From contig WGLQ01000007.1 of assembly GCA_016125495.1 (NCBI GenBank), positions 62,001 to 126,000 of the forward strand: a stretch of DNA of 64,000 nt. The letters run 5' to 3'. Both the position numbers and the translations under genes were made by a program. The stretch is from Hyphomicrobiales bacterium (GTDB lineage: Bacteria; Pseudomonadota; Alphaproteobacteria; Rhizobiales; RI-29). Below are positions 22,276-23,528 of the stretch, one piece after another. Position 1 is the stretch's first letter, and every line of letters starts with the position of its first letter. Under the pieces are notes generated by a model. It ran no database searches. It worked only from the letters and a program-made list of their open reading frames with translations, and had not been told where the DNA came from.

Positions 22276-22318
22276 CTCCTTGGCCGAGGTGAACCGCCCT
22301 ACGGGGCAGACCAAGGAG
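22276..22318 (+). promoter_or_regulatory. Leader hairpin that hides the ribosome binding site of the Arg-Gly repeat gene
   Basis: CTCCTTGG (22276-22283) is perfectly complementary to CCAAGGAG (22311-22318), which contains the full Shine-Dalgarno AAGGAG of the gene starting at 22326. A small inner GC hairpin sits in the 27-base loop. The fold would block ribosome entry until melted or bound, as in RNA thermometers or cis-regulated leaders. I do not recognise a known riboswitch class. Confidence 0.5.
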
Positions 22319-22325
22319 AAATGCA

Positions 22326-22874
22326 ATGGCAGACGGCGACAACTCCAAACTCGAGGGCGATGGCTCGCCGAACGTGGCTTCGAGGCGTCGGTTCCTGCGG
22401 CTCTTGGGACTCGCGACCATCGCGGTCGCGGCGGCACCGGCGGCGCTCGTGATCGGCGAGGCCGACGCCAAGGGCGGCGGCGGCGGCGGGGGCGGCTCCG
22501 GCGACAGCGGGGGCGATGATTCCGGTGGGCGCGGCAATGGCAGCGACGATGGTCCGGGCGACGATTCCGGTGGCCGGGGACGTGGCCGCGGCAGCGACGA
22601 TGGGCCAGGAGACGACTCGGGCAGCGGTCGCGGTGGTGGTCGTGGCAGAGGACGCGGCAATGGCAGCGGGCGCGGTCGTGGTCGCGGCCAAGCCAGCCTC
22701 AGTGGTGACGATGACGGGCATGGACGCGGCCGAGGCCGGGGACGTGGCCGCGGGCGCGGCAGGGGTCGCGGTCGTGGACGCGGTCGAGGCAGGGGCCGGC
22801 GCTCGAATTTCGCGCTGAACGATTGCACGCGTCGTCGTCCGTCCAACCCGTTCTGCACGGGCCATCAGTACTGA
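22326..22874 (+). CDS. Tat-exported Gly/Asp/Arg repeat protein, unknown function
   Basis: A 182-residue protein with a twin-arginine signal: SRRRFLRLLG (about residues 19-28), hydrophobic ATIAVAAAPAALVIG, then ADA before the mature part. The mature protein starts with poly-Gly, then imperfect acidic repeats (GDDSGGRG...GSDDGP, three copies, about residues 63-100), then a run of alternating Gly-Arg (about 132-158), and ends with two cysteines (NDC and PFC) and GHQY. A perfect AAGGAG lies eight bases upstream of the ATG, and an intrinsic terminator follows, so it is a single-gene unit. A secreted RG-rich, DNA-, RNA- or polyanion-binding protein is inference; the family is not recognised. Confidence 0.7.
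   Translation: MADGDNSKLEGDGSPNVASRRRFLRLLGLATIAVAAAPAALVIGEADAKGGGGGGGGSGDSGGDDSGGRGNGSDDGPGDDSGGRGRGRGSDDGPGDDSGSGRGGGRGRGRGNGSGRGRGRGQASLSGDDDGHGRGRGRGRGRGRGRGRGRGRGRGRGRRSNFALNDCTRRRPSNPFCTGHQY
22719..22800 (+). repeat. Six-base tandem repeat coding for Gly-Arg
   Basis: Imperfect GGNCGN hexamers repeated about thirteen times within the repeat protein gene. Third positions vary, so the repeat is kept at the protein level rather than being a recent slippage product. The length of the run could still vary between strains. Confidence 0.6.
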
Positions 22875-22947: not shown

Positions 22948-22983
22948 GGATGGTGATCCTCGCGATCACCATCCTCTTTTTTC
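22948..22983 (+). terminator. Intrinsic terminator of the Arg-Gly repeat gene
   Basis: GGATGGTGATC (22948-22958) and GATCACCATCC (22964-22974) form an 11-bp perfect stem with the loop CTCGC, followed by TCTTTTTT. This is the clearest plus-strand rho-independent terminator in the window. It stands 74 bases after the stop codon. Confidence 0.85.
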
Positions 22984-23036
22984 GTCGCCGGCTCCAACCG
23001 GGTCCGGCTCCATGCCCGGCTCATCGGCACATCCCA

Positions 23037-23432
23037 TCAGCCGGGCATCCGCAGCTCGATCCGATCCTCGTCACGGCAGGTGTGGCTGCGGCTGTTCGCC
23101 GAGCGGTTGGACCACTGGGCGTTGCCCGCGTCCCAGAGTTGATAGATCACCGTGAATTGGCCGGTCGCACCGGAGTCCAACCGGTTGAGCCGGCGTGGCG
23201 CCGTCAGGACCGCGGCACCCGAATTGATCACCCGGTTGCCGACGTCCTCGATCCAGGTCCCGTCGTTGCCCACGATGTGCACGCTGCGCACACGCACGCG
23301 AGTTGCATGATCATTGACGAACTGGAAGCGCACCTGGACGCAATCGCCTGCGTGCGCCGTCCCGCCCGCCGTCGTCCCCGCCGCCAGCCACGTCACGGCG
23401 ATCAGCAGCCCCGCTCGCACCACCTTCGCCAT
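23037..23432 (-). CDS. Small secreted protein of unknown function
   Basis: A 131-residue protein with a Sec signal peptide (KVVRAGLLIAVTWLAAG, cleavage probably at AHA-GDC). The mature part of about 100 residues is beta-rich (VQVRFQFVNDHATRVRVRSV) with one Cys at its N-terminus and one near residue 121 (SHTC), likely to form a disulfide in the periplasm. No family recognised. ATG 23432 has GGGAG eight bases upstream; two ATGs at 23438 and 23447 are possible but less well placed. An inverted repeat ATGCCCGGCT/AGCCGGGCAT at 23012-23048 covers its stop. Confidence 0.6.
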   Translation of the reverse strand: MAKVVRAGLLIAVTWLAAGTTAGGTAHAGDCVQVRFQFVNDHATRVRVRSVHIVGNDGTWIEDVGNRVINSGAAVLTAPRRLNRLDSGATGQFTVIYQLWDAGNAQWSNRSANSRSHTCRDEDRIELRMPG

Positions 23433-23528
23433 ACCCATGACTCCCATCCGATGTGTCCATCAGACTGGCGCAGTCTCCGTTTCCGGGCAAGGCGCACCGA
23501 GGGGAAAGGTGAGTGCCAGCGGGCACGA

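Follow-up and report, generated by a model that had tools for sequence, protein, structure and literature searches.

In the window, that is, the whole 64,000-nucleotide stretch of DNA that was analysed, the alphaproteobacterial gene under study encodes P0001, a small protein in which a twin-arginine (Tat) signal is followed by a series of low-complexity blocks (Table 1). The signal comprises S19-RRR-FLRLLG, a hydrophobic core reaching to about residue 43 and then A46-D47-A48; judged from sequence, the marks of a Tat substrate are present, namely an RR motif in the n-region, a hydrophobic core and an A-x-A end. The acidic repeat GSDDGPGDDSG occurs in two exact copies (from residues 72 and 89) and one partial copy near residue 63, an additional DDD lies near residue 128, and the protein contains 24 GR dipeptides, 13 of them in one uninterrupted tract. 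An earlier note on this DNA had described a twin-arginine signal, poly-Gly, Asp-rich repeats, a run of about 13 Gly-Arg dipeptides and a two-Cys tail, and each of these features was confirmed.

Table 1. Features of the P0001 locus; positions are those of the window.
Feature	Position	Strand	Remarks
Leader hairpin of P0001	22276-22318	+	Arms CTCCTTGG and CCAAGGAG; second arm holds the Shine-Dalgarno AAGGAG (22313-22318)
P0001 open reading frame	22326-22874	+	182 aa from ATG to stop; rich in Gly, Asp and Arg, with a Tat signal
Twin-arginine signal peptide, residues 1-48	22326-22469	+	A-D-A end; from profile scores; cleavage site predicted from sequence
Gly8, residues 50-57	22473-22496	+	From sequence
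Acidic block, residues 59-98	22500-22619	+	Net charge -7; carries the GSDDGPGDDSG repeats
13 Gly-Arg units, residues 133-158	22722-22799	+	Net charge +13; codons scrambled synonymously
Two-Cys tail, Cys167 and Cys177	22824-22856	+	C-x9-C
Intrinsic terminator	22948-22984	+	11-pair stem, then T run
Downstream neighbour	23037-23447	-	136-aa secreted-looking protein, convergent with P0001

The predicted mature protein has 134 residues, of which 40% are Gly, 21% Arg and 15 in number Asp, while I, L, V, M, F, W, Y and C together account for only 7. Its charge-hydropathy value (H 0.307 against a boundary of 0.451) lies far on the disordered side, and its tail is of the disordered, Gly-rich kind (with Ser, Arg, Lys, Pro or Asp) that characterizes the set of small Tat proteins discussed below. 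No Pfam family was matched at E<=0.01, including any known RNA- or DNA-binding domain, and both NCBIfam matches fell under their cut-offs. The formate dehydrogenase region TAT target family TIGR02811 likewise comprises short Tat proteins, but P0001 scores 15 bits against its cut-off of 48.45 and in the signal region only.

The codons of the Gly-Arg tract carry a record of constraint. Its 13 units use 10 distinct hexamers, and in none of the 12 pairs of neighbours do both units have the same one. Measured against the consensus hexamer the tract has 17 differences, every one of them synonymous (P about 1e-8, on the assumption that 34% of random single changes in Gly-Arg hexamers are synonymous). 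Because every change is silent, selection has kept the repeat at the protein level, and the codon pattern argues against both fresh DNA slippage and a spurious frame. Codon scrambling as a special adaptation was rejected, since usage relative to background differs slightly for Arg (p 0.033) and not for Gly (p 0.45).

The leader and the surroundings point to a self-contained gene. The pattern formed by the two hairpin arms has one match in the whole window, at the leader, and none in 100 shuffles. The modelled unpaired probability of the Shine-Dalgarno is 0.001, a value that none of 500 shuffled leaders reached and that was equalled by one of nine comparison ORFs (the nine with a Shine-Dalgarno-like motif among 35, from rough gene calling); the fold energy of the 126-base leader as a whole is ordinary (z -1.14, with 27 of 200 shuffles folding as well). 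Burial of the ribosome-binding site could plausibly control P0001. Burial as a trait of the small-Tat family was dropped, with only two (L015 and L101) of the 36 other small Tat genes being about as buried. Downstream of P0001 the scan placed a strong terminator with a T run at 22948-22974. Upstream, a ROK-family protein gene ends 217 bases before the P0001 start, and the remaining two terminator-like sites of the scan fall within that upstream gene. Neither Pfam nor NCBIfam assigned a family to the downstream neighbour, and Rfam at gathering scores had no match in the window. The P0001 gene thus looks like a unit of its own. The earlier claim that it stands alone with its own regulated leader and terminator holds as regards the lone gene, the leader and the terminator; as the scan found no sigma-70-like promoter for it, regulation is something that we infer.

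Relatives by architecture

No paralogue of P0001 was found in its own genome, where the weak matches were read as a His-rich binding protein and a solute-binding Tat protein. In the genome set, the genus of the host consists of its own genome alone, and the host's family and that of genome G016 of one genome each. Among 397 genomes of the order, 33, its own included, had a match to P0001 at E<=0.001, and most of the ORFs that were read (part of these matches) proved to be low-complexity chance matches or unrelated Gly-rich proteins. A contig scan gave two loci, from Geodermatophilus and a Rhodobacteraceae metagenome-assembled genome, which are Asp/Gly repeat look-alikes. A tblastn search of plasmids gave nothing at E<=1e-3, and searches of the order, the class and plasmids yielded no full-length homologue. 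As to the homologues with signal plus repeats on which the earlier note had made its proposal depend, they exist at the level of architecture, Tat signals with Gly/Arg repeats being present in the order, in the class and on a named plasmid; no match over the full length of P0001 was found among them.

A P0001-like architecture was seen in few of the order ORFs read, the best being three proteins of G016. One consists of a Tat signal, AKGGGGGG, an Asp-rich stretch and (RG)n and lies beside a gene for a kinase-PqqD protein; the two others combine Tat, Gly and RG with two-Cys tails (C-x9-C and C-x11-C). In the order search, the architecture read from this genome was Tat, Gly/Ser, RG and an NDC...C tail. 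The order further contains Tat-Gly/Ser-RG (G335), Tat-Gly-Ser/Asp (G282 and G266) and Tat-Gly-acidic-two-Cys proteins (G067). A fourth G016 candidate (C352) was rejected on account of its resemblance to a DsbA-type protein. An RG protein of G016 (L041, 2685-3464, minus strand) has a C-terminal end that reads as PepSY-like and lies near genes resembling a two-component pair.

A profile (A2) built from the Tat N-termini of the order look-alikes plus P0001 retrieved short Tat proteins in 28 of the 384 class genomes other than P0001's own (G000) at E<=1e-6, and all of these were read. Their N-termini share approximately the pattern RRxALxRLGLAxxxAYxAPxLLxLxxAxA, and their tails vary widely, being SR, RPS, RGS, GR, Lys-rich, Pro-Cys or Asp-rich. 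Cysteines occur in 27 of 42 tabulated tails and are even in number in 26 of these 27, as expected for disulfides formed after export; the rows of this table are related to one another, and it omits second tandem copies and the weaker matches L057, L063, L065 and L066. Tails rich in Gly and Asp that finish near CAAGT[ND]C are carried by Tat proteins of G134 (L052), where two stand in tandem, and of G067 (L006 and L110); both genomes are absent from the kinase list.

Membership of P0001 in this set by descent is a separate matter. Against a 19-row profile of the relatives without the Gly junction P0001 scored 19.4 bits, no better than the unrelated Tat-type proteins L063 (19.8) and L068 (19.4), and common descent is therefore not established. 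A profile of 10 relatives with the Gly junction, P0001 not included, gave 40.2 bits for P0001 and 32.7 for the G067 protein, against 27.0 for the best protein not counted as a relative (L066, which is likewise short, Arg-rich and of Tat type) and 24.5 for the best large Tat-type protein (L061); its rows were picked for having the junction, and a Gly run can be convergent. Convergence in low-complexity sequence, rather than common descent, may thus account for the likeness.

Association of small Tat genes with an HprK-like kinase

In G335, G282, G266 and G016 (contig C388), the gene adjoining the small Tat gene encodes a protein with an N-terminal HprK-related part, which matches HprK-related kinase models weakly, and a C-terminal PqqD domain. 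A kinase profile (A3) built from 15 such kinase-PqqD proteins retrieved HPr-kinase and lasso-peptide B1/PqqD chains from the PDB (8 distinct sequences at E<=0.01). A kinase lies close to the small Tat gene, within 1.5 kb flanks, in 16 of 29 class loci. Among the 384 class genomes, the P0001 genome excluded, an HprK-like kinase with PqqD fused or adjoining was detected at E<=1e-20 in 26 of 28 genomes with a small Tat gene and in 10 of 356 others (Fisher 5.6e-30), and removal of the nine genomes that had supplied A3 rows left 17 of 19 against 10 of 356 (Fisher 1.2e-20), values that treat related genomes as independent and are hence not clean probabilities. The two small-Tat genomes with no kinase at this threshold are G509 and G768. 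In five genomes (G770, G693, G604, G424 and G691), the kinase does not adjoin the small Tat gene and lies about 37-43 kb away. Three small Tat genes lacking an adjoining kinase (L118, L121 and L125) stand beside an mmcB-like gene, recognized by Pfam in L118 and as look-alikes in L121 and L125, with the kinase about 40 kb off on the same contig.

In the order sample, A3 matched 38 of 397 genomes at E<=1e-8, with eight below 1e-60 and the next at 1.5e-25; the cut of E<1e-60 was chosen after inspection of the match list. A small Tat gene stands beside the kinase in seven of these eight genomes (G282, G266, G016, G335, G037, G334 and G206), of which all except G206 contributed rows to A3. Of the seven order genomes first counted with both genes, six gave A3 rows, and six of the nine Tat genomes gave A2 rows. 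The G206 small Tat-like gene (L133, 1078-1479) lies directly upstream of the kinase and encodes a strikingly Ser/Arg-rich tail with Trp. No small Tat gene was seen in the 1.5 kb kinase flanks of the eighth genome, G002, and the A2 match that was read there is a subtilase (L051, 628-2274). This subtilase lacks the twin arginine and carries a long run of Asp close to its N-terminus; the kinase of that genome is on a different contig. A Tat protein of this look with no kinase was found in the P0001 genome and in G067.

With respect to tail composition, Ser stands next to Arg in 16 of 22 kinase-adjacent tails; P0001 has one such pair alongside its Asp residues. Where the kinase is lacking, acidic residues make up 11-30% of five tails (that of P0001 and four from G067 and G134) and 0-4% of the two from G509 and G768; acidic tails also occur beside a kinase (G266, 25%; G622, 13%). 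Some relatives are situated near envelope-sugar genes. A gene combining PfkB and CTP_transf_like domains, which we take to be hldE-like, is nearby in L118, L124 and L126 according to Pfam and as a sequence look-alike in L121, and polysaccharide export genes are near the relative in Leisingera. NTP_transf_5 was found in the chromosomal clusters L117, L119 and L124.

Named examples are available from four (Shinella, Paracoccus marcusii, Leisingera and Tistrella) of the nine plasmid records that matched. On the Shinella sp. WSC3-e plasmid NZ_OZ000533.1, a possible anti-sigma factor (zf-HC2 at 21.5 bits, slightly short of the 22.2 required), a sigma factor, a subtilase, an 86-residue Tat RG-rich protein and a kinase-PqqD protein follow one another, the last two being annotated as 'hypothetical protein' and 'PqqD family protein', respectively. 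Paracoccus marcusii repeats the succession of sigma factor, subtilase and kinase-PqqD genes; among them lies an RG-repeat stretch that carries no annotation and whose signal and repeat are in different frames in that record. The Leisingera record holds a small Tat-like Lys/Arg-rich protein followed by a kinase-like gene and an NTP_transf_5 gene. The subtilases of the first two records (L188, NZ_OZ000533.1:143809-152810; L189, NZ_CP065894.1:39136-48068) have at their start a Tat-type signal as well as a stretch rich in RG, Ser and Arg, and they may represent a second substrate or a maturation protease.

Two known systems resemble this arrangement. The HPr-rel-A system (NCBIfam TIGR04352 kinase and TIGR04353 PqqD) also pairs an HprK-like kinase with a PqqD-type domain, but 11 of the relatives' kinases reach 22-53 bits where the cut-off is 200, and the window genome has nothing over the cut-off. 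PMC8498205 describes phosphorylated lasso peptides in which an HPr-kinase homologue phosphorylates the C-terminal Ser of the precursor; in pseudomycoidin, sugars are attached to the phosphorylated peptide by a nucleotidyltransferase. Some relatives' clusters share the kinase, PqqD and NTP_transf_5 components with these systems (paeninodin and pseudomycoidin, with kinase, nucleotidyltransferase and PqqD-like B1). In contrast to lasso precursors, the relatives are Tat proteins, and no asparagine-synthase cyclase was seen in the relatives' gene lists that were read, which were in part family-searched; the Tistrella plasmid kinase match, however, does resemble a lasso cluster in adjoining an asparagine synthase gene, and the 48-residue protein that follows it has no Tat signal. 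None of the kinase, PqqD, NTP_transf_5 or cyclase genes was seen beside P0001. A combination of HprK-like kinase, PqqD and Tat precursor was not found described in the openly licensed PMC literature, and small exported Tat proteins with an HprK-like kinase gene form a widespread and seemingly undescribed group.

P0001 itself is like the members of this group, such as the Shinella protein, in its Tat signal, Gly/Ser junction, RG/Ser-rich disordered tail and small, single-protein form. It differs in its Asp blocks, in having the most GR dipeptides of the tabulated tails and in its buried Shine-Dalgarno, which is rare among them. Its genome, in an assembly that is 99.35% complete, contains nothing at E<=10 for A3 and no TIGR04352 match over the cut-off, two weak matches having been read as a MeaB-like GTPase and a true HprK; three matches to PqqD (PF05402) at E 0.5-0.65 were all short of the cut-off. 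Since no such kinase and no PqqD over cut-off were found in this genome, P0001 is regarded as an orphan with the architecture of the set and is not filed in the kinase system.

Interpretation of P0001

Our preferred reading, put forward tentatively and with somewhat less than an even chance of being correct, is that P0001 leaves the cytoplasm as a disordered protein with blocks of charge and binds polyanions of the envelope. Briefly, a real and selected single-gene unit would give rise to a precursor that Tat carries out of the cytoplasm, as its signal suggests, with cleavage probably after residue 48, and the mature chain would remain disordered, in keeping with its composition. The acidic block near the signal and the basic Gly-Arg block near the end would make it a polyampholyte, and Cys167 and Cys177 may form a disulfide in the oxidising periplasm, a proposal supported by the even Cys counts of the relatives' tails. 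The basic block could then bind acidic envelope or extracellular polymers such as LPS, capsule or exopolysaccharide, and possibly DNA, while the acidic block would keep the chain soluble and tune polymer binding. Comparable small Tat proteins mostly come with an HprK-like kinase and a PqqD domain, which may phosphorylate their Ser-rich tails prior to export; P0001, in whose genome this kinase was not found, has Asp blocks and rarely Ser next to Arg, and is taken as an orphan.

Tat quality control is thought to limit the export of unstructured chains, and P0001, if this reading is true, would be a native test case for such export. The earlier note had considered Tat export of an RG-rich chain unexpected. 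It is less so in the light of a review (PMC6708511) which reports that Tat carried out unstructured, hydrophilic stretches 100-120 residues long, though not an scFv with an unstructured tail; the mature part of P0001 exceeds the length reported there as tolerated.

A broader and more speculative proposal, which we consider unlikely, concerns the kinase-linked relatives. In it, the Tat route of alphaproteobacteria would serve a class of disordered Arg/Ser-rich proteins whose Ser residues had been phosphorylated beforehand by an HprK-like kinase, guided by a PqqD domain that would read the Tat-type leader. This would be a bacterial counterpart of SR-protein phosphorylation and would set how charge is patterned on envelope proteins. 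P0001 would represent a kinase-free form with Asp blocks in place of phosphoserine, and this substitution is a guess.

RG repeats are common in RNA-binding proteins, and the 24 GR dipeptides of P0001 are a trait of RGG/GAR nucleic-acid-binding proteins, so that the protein might instead act inside the cell or anchored to the membrane, its 'signal' being unused for export. This we consider improbable, as the N-terminus shows the elements of a Tat signal in their proper sequence, with an A-D-A end followed by a Gly junction like that of the relatives, and no Pfam nucleic-acid-binding family was matched. The earlier note took RG-rich proteins usually to bind RNA or DNA inside cells; the relatives' tails, ranging from GR to SR, RPS, Lys-rich and Asp-rich, mean that RG repeats need not denote nucleic acid, and disorder and charge, rather than an RNA-binding code, look like the common property of these tails.

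There is a slim chance that P0001 is a working member of the small-Tat, HprK-like kinase and PqqD set, phosphorylated before export by a distant or diverged kinase. Its resemblance to the kinase-adjacent G016 protein, the near-constant presence of the kinase in small-Tat class genomes and the five genomes with a kinase tens of kilobases away would fit such a role, but the three profile searches of the nearly complete genome gave no candidate, and Tat genes also occur with no kinase in G509 and G768. We give little credence to a secreted mineral- or metal-binding matrix protein, whose acidic repeats would hold cations and whose basic block would hold silicate, phosphate or polysaccharide: the Asp-rich repeats and Gly-rich disorder would suit it, but none of the seven neighbouring proteins scanned has a mineral or metal function and P0001 has no family over cut-off. 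A low-complexity product of repeat expansion with no selected function, to which the failure to find a full-length homologue and the low-complexity sequence might point, is highly improbable given the wholly synonymous repeat changes, the non-identical adjacent units and the gene's own leader hairpin and terminator.

What the earlier note observed is sound, and its interpretation is partly supported. Taken alone, P0001 is a moderately interesting orphan; the kinase-linked set, which joins a Tat precursor to a gene resembling a kinase and to a recognition domain of the RiPP type, is the larger surprise and the more valuable lead. The two-Cys end has a further parallel in three proteins (L012, L022 and L034) with Sec-like signals and Gly-rich repeats (GGGS, GH and RG), which have a C-terminal two-Cys stretch recalling that of P0001 and possibly corresponding to a common exported end-module.
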